NCBI RefSeq assembly: GCF_031458175.1
Contig: NZ_JAVDXX010000001.1
Location: forward strand, 1-64,000
Origin: Pseudoglutamicibacter albus
GTDB taxonomy: Bacteria > Actinomycetota > Actinomycetes > Actinomycetales > Micrococcaceae
Direction of reading: 5' to 3'
Length of the DNA: 64,000 nt
Below the pieces are notes generated by a model. The model did not search any database. It was not told the origin of the DNA and saw nothing but the letters and a program-made list of their open reading frames with translations. Shown here one piece after another: positions 11,179 to 21,955 of the stretch. Both the position numbers and the translations under genes were made by a program. The number at the start of each line of letters is the position of its first letter. Position 1 is the stretch's first letter.

Positions 11179-11691
11179 TTATGCGCGCAGTTGGCGTTTG
11201 GAGGAGATGACTCCGGTGTCGAAGCCTGCAAGGTGGAGACCGCCGTGGAAGCGTGCGTGCTCGATTTTGACGCAACGGTTCATGACCGCGGCGAGCCCGC
11301 CGGCTTCAGCGATGCGCGCGGCTTCTTCGTTCCACAGGCCCAACTGTGCCCAGAACACCTTCGCGCCCACACGCACGGCGTCCTCAGCGACGCTCGGGAG
11401 GTCTTCGTTACGGCGGAATGCAACCACGATGTCGGGCGCTTCTGGCAGGTCATCGAGGCTCGGGTACACGGGCTCCCCGAGCAGCTCAGTGGCTCGCGGG
11501 TTGATGAAGTACAGCTTGTAGGGGGCGGAGGACTGCAGGTAGGTCGCCACGAAATACGCGGCACGCGCGGGGTTGGTGGAGGCGCCGACGATCGCGATGC
11601 TCTTGGCGGCACGCAGCAGGTTCAACCGTTGCGGGGCTGATGGGCCAACCCACGTGCTGTTGGCCTCTGTTGTGGTGGTTTCGTTGCTCAT
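11179..11691 (-). CDS. CoA-binding domain protein (YccU type)
   Basis: A 170-residue single-domain Rossmann-fold protein. SIAIVGASTNPARAAYFVATYL is the nucleotide-binding start of the CoA_binding family. FINPRATELLGEPVYPSLDDLP and VFWAQLGLWNEEAA, with the conserved NRC near the end, match the stand-alone family represented by E. coli YccU. The function is not firmly known. Its ATG overlaps the metY stop (TAATG), so it is co-transcribed behind the SAM-I riboswitch. This hints at a role linked to acyl-CoA or acetyl-homoserine metabolism, which is inference. Confidence 0.88.
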   Translation of the reverse strand: MSNETTTTEANSTWVGPSAPQRLNLLRAAKSIAIVGASTNPARAAYFVATYLQSSAPYKLYFINPRATELLGEPVYPSLDDLPEAPDIVVAFRRNEDLPSVAEDAVRVGAKVFWAQLGLWNEEAARIAEAGGLAAVMNRCVKIEHARFHGGLHLAGFDTGVISSKRQLRA

Positions 11692-13019
11692 TACGCTTCC
11701 TCCCCGTTCGCAGCACCGTCACTAGCACCGTTCACGGCGGCTTCCAGGGCCTGGTCGAGGTCCCAGATGATGTCCTCAACATCCTCAAGGCCCACCGAAA
11801 TACGGATCAGGTCTTCGCCGATCCCGCCGGCAATCAGCTGTTCTTTACTTAGCTGCTGATGCGTTGTGGATGCCGGATGCAACACGAGGGTCTTCGCGTC
11901 ACCAATGTTGGCTAGGTGGCTGGCCAGCTGCAGGTTCGCGATGAACTCAGCCCCGACGTCGCGCCCACCCTTGAGACCAAAGCTGAACACGGAGCCCACG
12001 CCGTTCGGCAAGAGCTGCTTGCCGCGTTCGTGGTAGGCGTGGTCTTCCAGGCCGGCGTAGGAGACCCACTCGATGCGGTCATCGTTAGCCAGCCAACGCG
12101 CGACCTCACGGGCGTTGGCGATGTGCGCATCCATACGCTGCGGCAGGGTTTCGATGCCGATGAGCAACTGCCACGCGGACTGAGGGGCGAGCGATGCGCC
12201 GATGTCACGCAACTGTTCGTTGCGTAGCTTGGTGAGGAAACCGTACTCGCCGAAGTTGCCCCACCACGACAAGTCGCCGTAGGAAGGCACCGGTTCCGTC
12301 ATGGACGGGAAGTTGCCGTTGCCCCAGTTGAAACGGCCTGATTCAACGACCACGCCGCCCAGGGTGGTTCCGTGGCCGCCCAGGAACTTGGTCGCCGAGT
12401 GGATCACGATGTCCGCGCCGTGTTCCAGCGGACGGAAAATATATGGCGGGGTCAGGGTCGAATCCACAACCAGTGGGATCCCGTGTTCGTGGGCGAGAGC
12501 GCCGAGACCTTCGATGTCGGTGATCACACCGGACGGGTTGGCGACCACCTCGGTGTAGAGGACCTTGGTGTTCGGTTGGATCGCGGCCGCGAAGTCCTCG
12601 ACCTCGGTTGAGTCGATGAACGTGGTCTCCACGCCGAATCGGCGCAGCGTGACATCCAGCTGCGTCACGGTCCCGCCATAGAGCTTCGAGGAAGCGACCA
12701 CGTGATCGCCCGCCTGGCATAGCGCGGCGAACGTGATGAACTCAGCGGCCATACCCGAAGACGTCGCGACCGCGCCGATACCGCCCTCAAGGGACGCGAC
12801 GCGTTCCTCGAACGCCGCAACCGTAGGGTTAGCGATACGCGAATACACGTTCCCGTACTTCTGCAGCGCGAACAGCGTTGCCGCATCGTCCGCGTTTTCA
12901 AACACGAAAGACGTCGTGTTATACAGCGGGACGGCACGCGAACCGTGCTCCGAATCAGGGGTGGCACCCGCATGCAGGGCACGGGTACGGAAACCGAATT
13001 GACGGTCGGCAGAAGACAT
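11691..13019 (-). CDS. metY: O-acetylhomoserine sulfhydrylase (aminocarboxypropyltransferase)
   Basis: PLP enzyme of the Cys/Met metabolism family that makes homocysteine from O-acetylhomoserine and sulfide, releasing acetate. It has 442 residues. The PLP lysine is Lys211 in HSATKFLGGHGT, and the family marks SRIANPT and ATSSGMAAEF are present. Length and the long C-terminal part with LQLASHLANIGDAKTLVLHPASTTH favour MetY over MetB or MetC. GAAGGAG lies 5 nt before ATG 13019, a few bases beyond the 3' strand of a SAM-I riboswitch. High SAM should therefore shut it off. The CoA-binding gene follows with a one-base overlap. Confidence 0.94.
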   Translation of the reverse strand: MSSADRQFGFRTRALHAGATPDSEHGSRAVPLYNTTSFVFENADDAATLFALQKYGNVYSRIANPTVAAFEERVASLEGGIGAVATSSGMAAEFITFAALCQAGDHVVASSKLYGGTVTQLDVTLRRFGVETTFIDSTEVEDFAAAIQPNTKVLYTEVVANPSGVITDIEGLGALAHEHGIPLVVDSTLTPPYIFRPLEHGADIVIHSATKFLGGHGTTLGGVVVESGRFNWGNGNFPSMTEPVPSYGDLSWWGNFGEYGFLTKLRNEQLRDIGASLAPQSAWQLLIGIETLPQRMDAHIANAREVARWLANDDRIEWVSYAGLEDHAYHERGKQLLPNGVGSVFSFGLKGGRDVGAEFIANLQLASHLANIGDAKTLVLHPASTTHQQLSKEQLIAGGIGEDLIRISVGLEDVEDIIWDLDQALEAAVNGASDGAANGEEA

Positions 13020-13034
13020 GGAACTCCTTCAACT

Positions 13035-13133
13035 CCATCGATCCCGGCATGAGCACCATTCGCTGCAGCGGTGGTGCTGCGTCGATGGTTGCTGCGGCGT
13101 CACAGGGCCAGGTCCCTCGACCGCTCTAGATGG
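13035..13133 (-). ncRNA. SAM-I (S-box) riboswitch, metY leader
   Basis: Read on the minus strand it has the S-box core in order: AGAGCGG, GAGGGACCTGGCCC, TGACGCCGCAGCAACC, a variable stem-loop, then GGTGCTC and the closing strand. P1 pairs CCATC at 13129-13133 with GATGG at 13035-13039. The metY ribosome binding site begins a few bases after P1, which suggests control of translation. Two more copies lie at 19945 and 20384. Confidence 0.9.
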
Positions 13134-13142
13134 TCAGCCACC

Positions 13143-13965: not shown

Positions 13966-15255
13966 ATGATGAGCACCGCCAGTACATCAGCGAGAAACAC
14001 GTCAACACCGGGGCAACAGCTTCCGGCGGTACATCCGGCGGCGCAAGAACCGATCCCGGCGGAACTCAACGGGCACATCGTCCGGTTGCGCCGCTATCTG
14101 CACGCGAATCCCGAGCTGGACCGGCACCTACCCACCACTCAGGCGGCGGTGCTGGATGCGCTCGAGGGAACCGAGGGGATCGAGCTGCACACCGGGAAGG
14201 CGCAGTCCTCTGTGACCGCTGTTCTGCGTGGTGCTGCTCCGCTACCTGAAGGTACGCGCCGCCCCGTAGTCCTGTTGCGTGGAGACATGGACGCGCTACC
14301 GGTCACCGAAGAAACCGGGCTTGAATATTCGCCCACCGAAACCGGGAAGATGCATGCGTGCGGCCACGACATGCACACCGCCGGCCTGGTGGGCGCGCTG
14401 CTGTATCTCGCACAGCGCCGCGATGAACTCACCGCCGATGTTGTGGGCATGTTTCAGCCTGCCGAAGAAACCGCTGGCGGCGCGAAAATCATAATCGAAG
14501 AAGGCCTTCTCGAAGCCGCAGGCCAGCCGGTCGACGAAGCGTACGCGATCCACGTGTACGCCGACCGCTACCCGCACGCAACGTTCGTCTCCAAACCGGG
14601 AACCATACAGTCCGGATGTGACGACCTCGTCATCACCGTCCACGGCCAAGGCGGCCACGGATCCGCCCCGCACCAAGCCGCGGACCCGGTGCCAGTCGCG
14701 GCAGAGATCGTGCTCGGCCTACAGACCATGGTGACTCGCCAATTCGACCCGTTTGACCCCGTCGTGGTGACCGTCGGCTCGATCAAGGCGGGCTCTGCGC
14801 CGAACATCATCCCGTCCACCGCAACCATCCAGGTCACGCTGCGTTCCTTCAGCCCGGCGTCACGTGAAAAGCTCGTGCCGGCCGTGCAGCGCGTCGCCAA
14901 AGGCATCGCGGAAGCACACGGGATGAGTGCAAGCTACAGGGTCGAATGTGACTTCCCTGTAACCGTGAACTCGGCCGAACACGTGGACTACGTGGCCGAC
15001 ACCGTGCGGGACCTGTTCGGGGATACCGCCTACCGAGAGCTGCCGCGCACCGAAGCCGGTTCAGAAGACTTCTCCGAAGTGCTCCAGCGCGTACCGGGCG
15101 CCTACATTTTCCTCGGTGCCGTCCCGGAAGGTGAAGACCCCACGAAAGTTGCGGGCAACCACTCGCCACACGCGATCTTCGACGATCGCGTGCTGGGCCG
15201 TAGCGTGCGGCTTTTCGCGGAACTTGCGCTACGCCGCGGGCCTCTCGCACATTAA
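13966..15255 (+). CDS. M20 family amidohydrolase (N-acyl amino acid hydrolase type)
   Basis: Zinc peptidase-fold amidohydrolase of 429 residues. The metal ligands lie in GDMDALPV, HACGHDMHTA (with Cys and His) and PAEETAGGA (the catalytic Glu). The His of the lid domain is in HGQGGHGSAPHQAADP, and the last ligand is the final His in VAGNHSPHAIFDD. The pattern matches the hippurate/IAA-amino-acid hydrolase branch, which releases amino acids from N-acyl conjugates. The first 35 residues are Ser/Thr-rich and probably disordered. ATG 13966 is followed at once by a second ATG, so the start may be one codon later. Confidence 0.9.
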   Translation: MMSTASTSARNTSTPGQQLPAVHPAAQEPIPAELNGHIVRLRRYLHANPELDRHLPTTQAAVLDALEGTEGIELHTGKAQSSVTAVLRGAAPLPEGTRRPVVLLRGDMDALPVTEETGLEYSPTETGKMHACGHDMHTAGLVGALLYLAQRRDELTADVVGMFQPAEETAGGAKIIIEEGLLEAAGQPVDEAYAIHVYADRYPHATFVSKPGTIQSGCDDLVITVHGQGGHGSAPHQAADPVPVAAEIVLGLQTMVTRQFDPFDPVVVTVGSIKAGSAPNIIPSTATIQVTLRSFSPASREKLVPAVQRVAKGIAEAHGMSASYRVECDFPVTVNSAEHVDYVADTVRDLFGDTAYRELPRTEAGSEDFSEVLQRVPGAYIFLGAVPEGEDPTKVAGNHSPHAIFDDRVLGRSVRLFAELALRRGPLAH

Positions 15256-17890: not shown

Positions 17891-19933
17891 CTAGCCGCGG
17901 GCGGCGGCGAGCACGTCCGGGATGCATTCTTCGTTGCGCAGGCTCGTGGTGTCGCCGAGTGTTTCGCCGGTGTAGGCCTGGGTGAGGATGCGGCGCATGA
18001 TCTTGCCGGAGCGGGTTTTCGGTACGTCGGGCACGAGGATGATGCGGGCCGGTTTCGCGATGGGCCCGATCTCCTTGGTCACGGTGGCGCGTAGCCGCTG
18101 CGCGAACTCGGCGACGGCCTCCTCGCTCGCGTCAGCGCCGAGCAGGGCCTGATCGCCGGGGACCACGAACGCAACCGCGGCGTGGCCGGTCTTCGCATCA
18201 GGTACCGGGCATACGCCGGCTTCCACAACGCCCGGGTCGGTCACGAGCGCAGACTCGATTTCGATGGTTGAGAGCCTGTGGCCCGAAATGTTGATGACGT
18301 CATCGGTACGGCCGAGGATCCAGGTGTCGCCGTCGGCATCGACTTTCGCGCCGTCGCCTGCGCTGAACCAACCGTATGTGGCGTAGGCCTTCCAATAAGA
18401 GGTGTACCAGCGTTCCGGGTTGCCCCACACGGTGCGCGCCATCGAGGGCGGGAACTGGGTGAGCACGATGTTGCCTTGGGTTCCAGCCGGTGTCGGGTTG
18501 CCCTCGTCGTCGACAACCGCGGTCGCTACCCCTGGCATGTCGCGGCCTACGCTGCCGGGCTTGACGGTGGTTGCCCCGGGTAGGGGAGTGAGGATGGTGG
18601 AGCCAGTTTCTGACTGCCACCAGGTATCGACCATGCTGATGCCGCGCTCGGGTTCCCCGGTTTCGGGGTTGGCGGGCTGGTAGGTGTCGCGGCCGATCTG
18701 TTCGCGTAGCCACCGCGCTGCTTCAGGGTTGACGGCTTCACCTACGGTTCCGCCGAGGCGGATGCTCGAGAGATCGTATTCGTCGGGGATCCCTTCAGGG
18801 AACCAGCCCATGAGCGAACGCACGAGCGTTGGCGCGGTGTAGTAGGAGGTCACACCATAACGCTGGATGACTTCGAAGTGCCGGCCCGGGTGCGGGGCGT
18901 TGGGTACGCCTTCGTAGATGACTTGGGTCGCGCCGGCCCCGAGCGGCCCATAGATCTCGTAGGTGTGGGCGGTGACCCACGCGAGATCTGCAGTGCACCA
19001 ATGCACATCGCCCGCGCGTTGAGCTGGGTCCGGGTGGGCGAAAATCTGGTTATAGGTCGCTACAGCACCGGTGAGGTAGCCGCCGGTCGTGTGCACCAGG
19101 CCCTTCGGTTTCCCGGTGGTCCCGGAGGTGTACATGATGAACAGCGGATTTTCCGCATCGAACGCTTCCGGTGTGTGCTGCCGTGGCTGGCGGGGCACAA
19201 TCTGGTCCCACCAGATGTCACGGCCTTCGGTCCACGGGATGTCGCGGTGGCCGGTGCGGTCGATCACGAGCACATGCTCGAGCTGGTTCTCCCCGGATGC
19301 GGCCTCGTCCGCGATGTCCTTGACGGGCACGGCCTTGCCGCGGCGGTACTGGCCGTCGCTGGTGACCAGCAGCTTGGCGCGGGTGTCTTCAACACGGAAA
19401 CGCAACGCTTCTGCGCTGAATCCGCCGAAAACAAGCGAGTGGATCGCGCCGATGCGTGCGCAAGCCAGCGTGATGATGATCGTCTCAACGAGCACCGGAA
19501 GATAGATCACGACGCGGTCGCCGCGGGCGATGCCCAGTTCCGTGAGCGCGTGGGCGGCTTGCGAGATTTCCTCGGTGAGTTCGCGGTAGGTGACGGTGCG
19601 ACGGTCGCCGGGTTCACCTTCGAAGTAGAGCGCTACTTTGTCCCCGTTGCCTGCCGCTACGTGGCGGTCTGCGCAGTTGACAGCGGCGTTGAGCGTGCCT
19701 CCCGCGAACCAGGTTTGCTGCAGACCTTCCTGAGTTTCAGGGTTAGGCGGGGTTAGCGTGTGCACCGTATCCCACGGGGTCTCCCACGTGAGCTGGGCGG
19801 CCTGTTTGGCCCAGTACGCGCTGTGCTCTTCATCGCTAAGCAGCGCGTCATCGCTAGGCTGCGCGCTGCTGAGGTTTGCGTTGCTGAGCTGAGCCTGGGC
19901 GGCCTGGTGCGCGGGTGCGGACGTTGCGGTCAT
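17891..19933 (-). CDS. acs: Acetyl-CoA synthetase
   Basis: Activates acetate with ATP to acetyl-AMP and then acetyl-CoA; 680 residues, a little long because of a 40-residue Ala/Gln-rich N-terminus. The AMP-binding loop YTSGTTGKPKG, GDVHWCTADLAWVTAHTY, WWQSETGS, and the C-terminal PKTRSGKIMRR with the acetylatable Lys644 are diagnostic of Acs. Its ATG is only 11 nt from a SAM-I riboswitch. The GGAG ribosome binding site is continuous with the P1 3' strand, so SAM binding should hide it. SAM control of acs is unusual and suggests a role in recycling the acetate released by MetY. Confidence 0.95.
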   Translation of the reverse strand: MTATSAPAHQAAQAQLSNANLSSAQPSDDALLSDEEHSAYWAKQAAQLTWETPWDTVHTLTPPNPETQEGLQQTWFAGGTLNAAVNCADRHVAAGNGDKVALYFEGEPGDRRTVTYRELTEEISQAAHALTELGIARGDRVVIYLPVLVETIIITLACARIGAIHSLVFGGFSAEALRFRVEDTRAKLLVTSDGQYRRGKAVPVKDIADEAASGENQLEHVLVIDRTGHRDIPWTEGRDIWWDQIVPRQPRQHTPEAFDAENPLFIMYTSGTTGKPKGLVHTTGGYLTGAVATYNQIFAHPDPAQRAGDVHWCTADLAWVTAHTYEIYGPLGAGATQVIYEGVPNAPHPGRHFEVIQRYGVTSYYTAPTLVRSLMGWFPEGIPDEYDLSSIRLGGTVGEAVNPEAARWLREQIGRDTYQPANPETGEPERGISMVDTWWQSETGSTILTPLPGATTVKPGSVGRDMPGVATAVVDDEGNPTPAGTQGNIVLTQFPPSMARTVWGNPERWYTSYWKAYATYGWFSAGDGAKVDADGDTWILGRTDDVINISGHRLSTIEIESALVTDPGVVEAGVCPVPDAKTGHAAVAFVVPGDQALLGADASEEAVAEFAQRLRATVTKEIGPIAKPARIILVPDVPKTRSGKIMRRILTQAYTGETLGDTTSLRNEECIPDVLAAARG

Positions 19934-19944
19934 GCGTTGTCACT

Positions 19945-20036
19945 CCATCGATCCTGGCGTGAGCACCATGCCCGGTAAAAACCCGGGGTGGTTGCTGCGG
20001 CGTCATCGAGCCAGATCTCTCAGCCGCTCTGGATGG
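19945..20036 (-). ncRNA. SAM-I (S-box) riboswitch, acs leader
   Basis: Same core as the metY leader: AGAGCGG, GAGAGATCTGGCTC, GATGACGCCGCAGCAACC, a variable GC hairpin, then GGTGCTC and the closing strand. P1 pairs CCATCC with GGATCGATGG. The bases GG of the ribosome binding site GGAG are part of the P1 3' strand, giving a direct way to block translation. No intrinsic terminator is visible between aptamer and start codon. Confidence 0.9.
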
Positions 20037-20129
20037 TTGTGCTGTCCATAGTGGGTGACGAAGGTGGTTGCACGCAAATCGGGTCAGCGTGTGTGTCATG
20101 TTGCTCAACACGCGCCACGCTTGAGGTAG

Positions 20130-20373: not shown

Positions 20374-20383
20374 GAATCCGTAT

Positions 20384-20491
20384 CCATCCAGAGCGGCCGA
20401 GAGATCTGGCTCGATGACGCCGCAGCAACCATCCTGAAGGGTTCCGTAGCAGGAATCGTGAGGGAAAGGTGCTCCCGCCAGAAGACGATGG
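20384..20491 (+). ncRNA. SAM-I (S-box) riboswitch, monooxygenase leader
   Basis: Core motifs AGAGCGG, GAGAGATCTGGCTC, GATGACGCCGCAGCAACC and GGTGCTC appear in order. P1 pairs CCATC (20384-20388) with GATGG (20487-20491). The core is almost identical to that of the acs leader, which suggests duplication or shared origin of the two leaders. The gene starts 33 nt later, so the expression platform differs from those of acs and metY. Confidence 0.9.
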
Positions 20492-20524
20492 CGCAGCGTT
20501 TGAGGGCTGCGGGAAAGGGTTAAC

Positions 20525-21955
20525 ATGTCGTCTGAAAAACCGATTCTTCTCAACGCTTTCGCGATGAACACGATTGGCCACCAGTCCCCGGGTTTGTGGA
20601 AGCATCCGGAAGATACCTCGCGGGATTACAACAAGCTTTCGCACTGGGTTGAGCTTGCCAGGATCCTGGAGGAGGGCCGTTTTTCCGCCCTGTTTTTGGC
20701 GGACGTGATGGGTGTGTATGACGCCTATGCGAACTCCCCGGAGACCGCGTTGCGTTCCGGTGCGCAGATCCCGTTGGCTGACCCTGCAGTGATCGTGGCG
20801 GGGATGGCTGCGGCGACGAAGAACCTCGGTTTCGGTGTCACGGCGGGCACGGCATATGAGCATCCGGTGGGGCTTGCGCGCCGCATGGCGACCCTGGACC
20901 ACATCACCGGCGGTCGAGTCGGCTGGAACGTTGTGACCGGCTACCTCGAGTCCGCGGCGAAGAACTTTGGCCAGACCCGCCAGATGGAGCACGACGAACG
21001 CTACGATCACGCGGATGAATATCTCGAGGTCGTGTATAAGCTGCTTGAGGGTTCGTGGGAGGACGATGCGGTTGTAGCTGACCGCGAATCTGGTTTGTTT
21101 GTTGACCCGGCTAAGGTGCACCCGATTGAACACGAGGGCAAGTGGTTCAACGTTCCAGGTATTGCGATCACGGAGCCTTCCCGTCAACGCACCCCGGTGA
21201 TCTTCCAGGCTGGCGCGTCTTCGCGCGGTATGGCTTTCGCGGGGAAGCATGCTGAGGCTGTGTTCGTTTCGCAGGCAACCAAGGAAGGCCTCGCGAAGAC
21301 CGTGAAGAAAATCCGCGAAGCAACCGTGGCGGCGGGCCGTAACGCTGATGACGTCAAGATTTTCGCGATGATCACCCCGGTCGTTGGCAAGACGAACGAG
21401 GAAGCGTGGGAGAAATTCCGCGAATACCAGTCTTATGCCGATGAACAGGGAGCGTTGGCGTTGCTCGCAGGCTGGACGGGCATCGACTTGTCCGAATACC
21501 CGCTTGATGCGGTGATCGGTGAAGACGTGGAGTCCAACGCGATCCAGTCCGCGGTGAACATGTTCCAGGCGGCTTCAGGTGATTCTGATAAGCCGTGGAA
21601 CGTGGGCCAGTTGGCGCGCTACATCGGCGTGGGTGGTTTCGGTCCGGTTGCCGTGGGCACCGGCCGTGAAGTTGCCGAACAGTTCCATGAATGGGTGCGT
21701 GACACCGGGGTGGATGGCTTCAACGTCGCCTACGCGGTCAAGCCTGGCACGTTCCGTGACGTGGTGGACTATGTGATTCCAGAACTCGAAGCGCTCGGCG
21801 TGTACCCGAGCGCTGAGGAAGCCGCCGACGCCACAGTTGCGTGGGATGCCGACCGCCCAGTGGAGGACCAGACGGGTTCCTCCTTGCGCCACGCACTGTT
21901 TGGTCGCGGCGACCGGCTGCCGGAGAACCATCCGGGCGCGGCTGTGCGCCGCTAG
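20525..21955 (+). CDS. LLM-class FMNH2-dependent monooxygenase (NtaA/SnaA/DszA family)
   Basis: Bacterial luciferase-like TIM-barrel oxygenase of 476 residues that uses reduced FMN from a separate reductase. LNAFAMNTIGHQSPGLWKHP at the N-terminus, TLDHITGGRVGWNVVTGYLESAAKNFG and FQAGASSRGMAFAGKHAEAVF are typical of the nitrilotriacetate / sulfur-compound monooxygenase branch. The SAM-I riboswitch in its leader points to release of sulfur from an organosulfur compound when methionine is short. That use is inferred, and the true substrate is unknown. AAAGGG lies close before ATG 20525. Confidence 0.9.
   Translation: MSSEKPILLNAFAMNTIGHQSPGLWKHPEDTSRDYNKLSHWVELARILEEGRFSALFLADVMGVYDAYANSPETALRSGAQIPLADPAVIVAGMAAATKNLGFGVTAGTAYEHPVGLARRMATLDHITGGRVGWNVVTGYLESAAKNFGQTRQMEHDERYDHADEYLEVVYKLLEGSWEDDAVVADRESGLFVDPAKVHPIEHEGKWFNVPGIAITEPSRQRTPVIFQAGASSRGMAFAGKHAEAVFVSQATKEGLAKTVKKIREATVAAGRNADDVKIFAMITPVVGKTNEEAWEKFREYQSYADEQGALALLAGWTGIDLSEYPLDAVIGEDVESNAIQSAVNMFQAASGDSDKPWNVGQLARYIGVGGFGPVAVGTGREVAEQFHEWVRDTGVDGFNVAYAVKPGTFRDVVDYVIPELEALGVYPSAEEAADATVAWDADRPVEDQTGSSLRHALFGRGDRLPENHPGAAVRR

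Follow-up and report, generated by a model that had tools for sequence, protein, structure and literature searches.

A predicted P4-less SAM-I riboswitch at a second acetyl-CoA synthetase gene linked to metY in Pseudoglutamicibacter albus and other Micrococcaceae

S-box or SAM-I riboswitches (RF00162) are characterized by their core, P1, P2 with its loop pseudoknot, and P3, and they occupy the leaders of sulfur and methionine genes. P4 is a further helix in the structurally known SAM-I RNAs. Their typical expression platform is a terminator or a separate hairpin that sequesters the Shine-Dalgarno (SD) sequence. The SAM-I met riboswitch of Xanthomonas campestris, for example, acts mainly on translation initiation and hides both SD and AUG in a separate hairpin (PMC7270179). 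SAM-IV (RF00634), common in Actinobacteria, shares the ligand core and differs from SAM-I in the P4 helix, which it lacks; it carries P5 and PK-2 after P1 (PMC6890682). In Actinobacteria, riboswitch base stems typically overlap the initiation site directly (PMC1262725, citing Vitreschak 2004), and the same study, which lists THI, RFN, and B12 elements, reports that the methionine operons of its Actinobacteria had no conserved RNA structures.

The window analyzed here is a stretch of 64,000 nucleotides from Pseudoglutamicibacter albus. It contains a type-1 AMP-forming acetate--CoA ligase gene (acs, 17891..19933, minus strand) whose leader combines traits of these systems. The leader shares the SAM-I core, P1, P2 with its loop pseudoknot, and P3, but departs from typical members in the missing P4, in the target gene, and in an SD fused to P1; neither a terminator nor a separate anti-SD hairpin is present. 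As in X. campestris, control would be translational by predicted design, although in the acs leader part of the SD belongs to P1, a direct overlap of the kind described for actinobacterial base stems. Like SAM-IV, the leader is without P4, but the start codon directly follows P1 in place of P5 and PK-2. The encoded protein is homologous over its full length to AcsA (TIGR02188; Salmonella Acs, 1PG4/2P2F), with which it shares the acetate pocket and the acetylatable Lys609 motif, whereas its gene is a dedicated paralogue tied to metY, with a general acs elsewhere in the genome.

The sequence-only reading had proposed a SAM-I riboswitch on acs at 19945-20036. A covariance-model search places the aptamer in this leader, so the position holds, and corrects its extent to 19942-20039 (minus strand). 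The element scores 57.1 bits against RF00162 (Rfam cmscan; gathering score 44.4, E 1.5e-10) and 101 bits against our own model R1. The gathering score is also exceeded by the acs leaders tested at loci L035, L036, L114, and L099. Both P. albus (ACRRA) and P. cumminsii, whose acs genes are 98% and 91% identical to that of the window, keep the window's aptamers (L035, L036).

The pairing expected of SAM-I is retained across acs leaders in P1, P2a/b, P3, and the loop pseudoknot. P1 is formed by CCAUC (20032..20036) and GAUGG (19945..19949), both on the minus strand; the former is placed by the Rfam alignment and, among 42 distinct acs leaders, keeps its pairing in 41-42, and the latter is placed by the Rfam and acs-leader alignments. 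The pseudoknot joins CUGG in the P2b loop (20011..20014, minus strand; 98.8% of pseudoknot cells paired) to CCAG (19954..19957, minus strand; Rfam and leader alignments). Because only 3-4 nt separate CCAG from P1, the aptamer has no P4. A SAM-IV-type P5 has no room either, since the start codon comes immediately after P1; within the clan, RF00162 is the match retained at this site. With P4 missing, the RNA is filed as a P4-less variant of SAM-I and a predicted SAM binder. One S-box among 26 (L023, G164:C1:133294-133404) contains about 16 extra nucleotides with a GGATC/GATCC hairpin at the P4 position; the P4-less form is the norm in the others.

Comparative evidence carries this assignment. 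In 43 aligned acs leaders (42 distinct), 98.8% of cells are paired, compared with 27-54% in slid controls. Double changes occur at four pairs, one of them in P1 (C-G to U-A, twice), and the pairing and covariation of the 43 leaders were reached in 0 of 500 shuffles. Single-sequence minimum-free-energy folding of the acs leader was no better than shuffles (z = 0.20) and did not form P1, which is the expected outcome for a ligand-dependent pseudoknotted RNA. The case for the aptamer thus draws on the covariance model and on conservation, without help from single-sequence folding.

The leader reads, on the minus strand, ...UCGAUGGAGUGACAACGC-AUG. The ATG lies 8 nt past the aptamer end, which leaves no space for a terminator. 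The SD, GGAG (19943..19946, minus strand), stands 9 nt before the ATG and has its first two G's in P1; the proposed continuity of GGAG with the P1 strand is therefore confirmed, these two G's being common to the SD and to GAUGG. No transcription terminator was found between aptamer and start codon, and termination was rejected as the platform on both grounds. An SD overlapping the base stem, with no terminator before the start codon, is the arrangement of a translational riboswitch. The geometry of the suggested off-switch recurs in 59 of 66 leaders that stand directly ahead of acs, in 20 genera: GAUGG runs into an SD (GGAG, GGGAG, GGAAG, or GGAAAG), and the start codon follows 3-16 nt past the aptamer. 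S-boxes at ssuB, sfnB, and sfnG in Micrococcaceae loci often have similar spacing, indicating a general platform of the family that is not specific to acs.

Additional features accompany this region. In many direct leaders (L090, L095, L102, and L104), the acs reading frame also contains the AUG of GAUGG, a possible additional start codon that P1 could conceal. A scan for sigma-70 sites returned no consensus promoter. Further upstream, at 20093-20110 (minus strand), every Pseudoglutamicibacter locus analyzed has the palindrome-containing TGTTGAGCAACATGACAC ahead of acs, and the other genera analyzed do not; it is possibly an operator.

The initial reading also described three S-box leaders within 7.5 kb, on metY, acs, and a monooxygenase gene, and the search recovers all three above the RF00162 gathering score over a span of 7.46 kb. 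The metY aptamer (13032..13136, minus strand) scores 53.8 bits and is followed by a separate SD, AAGGAG, downstream of P1. The monooxygenase aptamer (20381..20494, plus strand), divergent from acs, scores 52.4 bits. In both, the platform differs from that of acs in having a separate SD farther downstream. In the monooxygenase leader, at 20495-20524 (plus strand), a GCAGC/GCTGC hairpin separates P1 from the SD, GGGAAAGGG. The genome (2.22 Mb) contains four S-boxes in total, the fourth ahead of an SfnB-like gene. The genes behind the three leaders are as claimed, with scores above their model cutoffs: acs (TIGR02188, 738 against 725 bits), metY, a type A O-acetylhomoserine sulfhydrylase gene (11691..13019, minus strand; TIGR01326, 582 against 495), and an NtaA/DmoA-family FMN monooxygenase gene (20525..21955, plus strand; TIGR03860, 516 against 280). 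Adjoining metY is a gene for a CoA_binding_2 protein (11179..11691, minus strand; PF13380), which is present in 83 of 135 acs loci. An M20-type amidohydrolase gene (13966-15255, plus strand) lies between metY and acs.

P. albus has another metY as well, located just upstream of metX and led by a SAM-IV riboswitch (G000:C1:488243-491031). Two SAM-IV matches are reported in this genome, with C1:488243 among the matches listed. Two classes of SAM riboswitch therefore serve the two metY copies. The general Acs paralogue, distinct from the S-box acs, lies at C1:1715598, and AckA is also present, so acetate could take routes other than the dedicated Acs in this organism.

To place the locus in context, 197 genomes of Micrococcaceae, whose members live in soil and on skin, were searched, and about 19 kb around acs orthologues was analyzed. 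Model R1, built from 26 sites, recovered 302 S-box sites; gene layouts were assigned from tblastn gene maps. Among 135 type-1 acs loci from 26 genera, an S-box stands directly ahead of acs in 66. In another 45, the order is S-box-ssuB-ssuA-ssuC-acs, and in seven it is S-box-flavin reductase-acs. In these 52 operon-led loci, acs would be co-transcribed with the genes ahead of it, as their collinearity suggests. Together, the three layouts account for 118 loci and 24 genera; three loci show other layouts, and 14 have no S-box, two of these being cut by a contig end. The pairing thus recurs in related genomes, and its conservation at orthologous loci supports the proposed SAM-I control of acs. 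Parsimony on a rough acs tree requires 27 changes among direct, operon-led, and absent states and 11 for S-box presence versus absence. The wiring therefore appears to have turned over often while SAM control stayed. The literature agrees with the suggestion that acs is not an established S-box target: no paper pairing 'SAM riboswitch' with 'acetyl-CoA synthetase', and no earlier report of acs as a SAM-riboswitch target, was found in open-access full text, a scope outside of which most subscription journals fall. As far as found, acs is a target newly linked to SAM-I.

The partnership of acs with metY extends beyond the family. In a set of 119 Micrococcales genomes compared by coordinates only, this metY type occurs in all 28 genomes that have this acs (Fisher 1.8e-22, uncorrected for relatedness, and overstating the evidence because family members are related). 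In 16 of the 28, from seven families, metY lies downstream of acs at a distance of no more than 1.5 kb and in the same orientation, and in 10 the two are far apart. Six of these 16 genomes (four of family f11, one of f19, and one of f20) have no SAM-I or SAM-IV match genome-wide. The partnership is thus independent of the riboswitch, as acetate recycling predicts. Each of the five type-1 acs genes of family f7 is preceded, 0.7-3.5 kb away and on its own strand, by a SAM-I site. Among the Micrococcaceae loci, 90 have a linked metY, which at 87 of them is downstream of acs and collinear with it, in several genera with short gaps in the order acs-metY-CoA_binding or acs-sfnG-metY-CoA_binding. The S-box acs islands also contain metY, CoA_binding_2, ssuABC, ntaA, sfnB, and sfnG genes.

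The enzyme itself is predicted to be of the acetate-using type. The protein exceeds the TIGR02188 equivalog cutoff (738.0 versus 724.95 bits), and the residues aligned with Salmonella V310, T311, V386, and W414, which form the acetate pocket, are invariant in 138 of 138 acs orthologues. The active-site type suggests that the product is an acetate-using ligase. Two other assignments were rejected. PrpE models of propionate--CoA ligases score far below cutoff, and the pocket W414 is kept. A DddX-like organosulfur acyl-CoA lyase does not fit, DddX being an NDP-forming-type enzyme (PMC8163506).

These observations are consistent with a mechanism in which SAM, when abundant, would bind the acs aptamer and stabilize P1. 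The stabilized helix would hold the first two G's of GGAG and block ribosomes from the acs start; at low SAM, P1 would open and acs could be translated. MetY is expected to release acetate whenever it makes homocysteine from O-acetylhomoserine, or methionine if the thiol is methanethiol. A dedicated second Acs may re-activate this acetate and return acetyl-CoA for MetX. The link between MetY acetate and Acs, part of the original proposal, gains support from the adjacency and co-occurrence of acs and metY with and without S-boxes and from the invariant acetate pocket. The sequence comparisons establish the aptamer, the P1/SD geometry, its conservation across genera, the linkage of acs and metY, and the acetate-type active site; from these we infer that SAM binds and represses, and that selection favored acetate recycling. 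Overall, we regard it as probable that the leader is a P4-less SAM-I translational switch on a dedicated Acs that recycles MetY acetate when methionine or SAM is short.

The riboswitch could also control an Acs whose main substrate is acetate, or some comparable small acid, from the breakdown of organosulfur compounds (sulfonates, dimethylsulfone, or N-acetylated cysteine conjugates) under sulfur starvation. The ssuBAC and flavin reductase layouts speak for this scenario, as do the relatives of sfnB, sfnG, and ntaA in the same islands and the amidohydrolase close by in the window. The sulfonate ABC transporter tied to acs in 45 loci makes another acetate source possible, and N-acetylcysteine-type deacetylation by the M20-type enzyme would be a second one. 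Yet P. albus keeps the acs S-box with SsuA below cutoff (best 23.6 bits), which weakens the sulfonate explanation. Moreover, metY partners acs in the f11, f19, and f20 genomes where no S-box was found, it is collinear downstream at nearly all linked loci, and the invariant pocket argues against larger acids. We therefore consider an organosulfur role as the main function unlikely.

A different view would grant regulation but deny it consequence, acs having entered an S-box island when the region was rearranged locally, with incidental control. Some plausibility comes from the divergent aptamers of acs and ntaA, which are separated by only about 340 bp and resemble each other as the products of a local duplication would. 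Against it, 24 of 26 genera retain S-box control of acs despite many wiring changes, and the general paralogue did not undergo such capture: none of its five fetched loci has an S-box, and in order-level coordinate lists (E to ~1e-7) no listed S-box has a general paralogue in the 5 kb downstream of it. Incidental control is accordingly judged very improbable. The missing P4 and the uninformative folding could instead point to a degenerate aptamer that does not bind SAM, leaving acs constitutive. This is hardly credible for an element that scores above the RF00162 gathering threshold and whose core and pseudoknot are invariant in 43 leaders with compensatory changes. The P4-less form also precedes metY, ssuB, sfnB, and sfnG across Micrococcaceae, and its presence at so many gene types marks it as the norm of the family.

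Extending the recycling reading, acs, metY, and the CoA_binding_2 gene may constitute a dedicated, SAM-gated acetyl-recycling module, with the CoA-binding protein connecting Acs to MetX/MetY or regulating them. In addition, the S-box metY could be specialized for methanethiol, which the SfnG and DmoA-like monooxygenases under shared control would supply, and yield methionine directly, leaving sulfide to the SAM-IV metY-metX pair. Taken jointly, these proposals are speculative and rather doubtful.

If the recycling reading is correct, the SAM riboswitch regulon would gain a by-product-recovery enzyme, so that it covers both a pathway and the recovery of its carbon waste. The P4-less aptamer with an SD partly inside P1 would represent a compact natural on/off design that is directly testable. 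It is further predicted that many actinobacteria possess a second Acs that serves methionine synthesis and not growth on acetate. Such a division of labor would bear on genome annotation, flux models, and production strains for methionine or O-acetylhomoserine.
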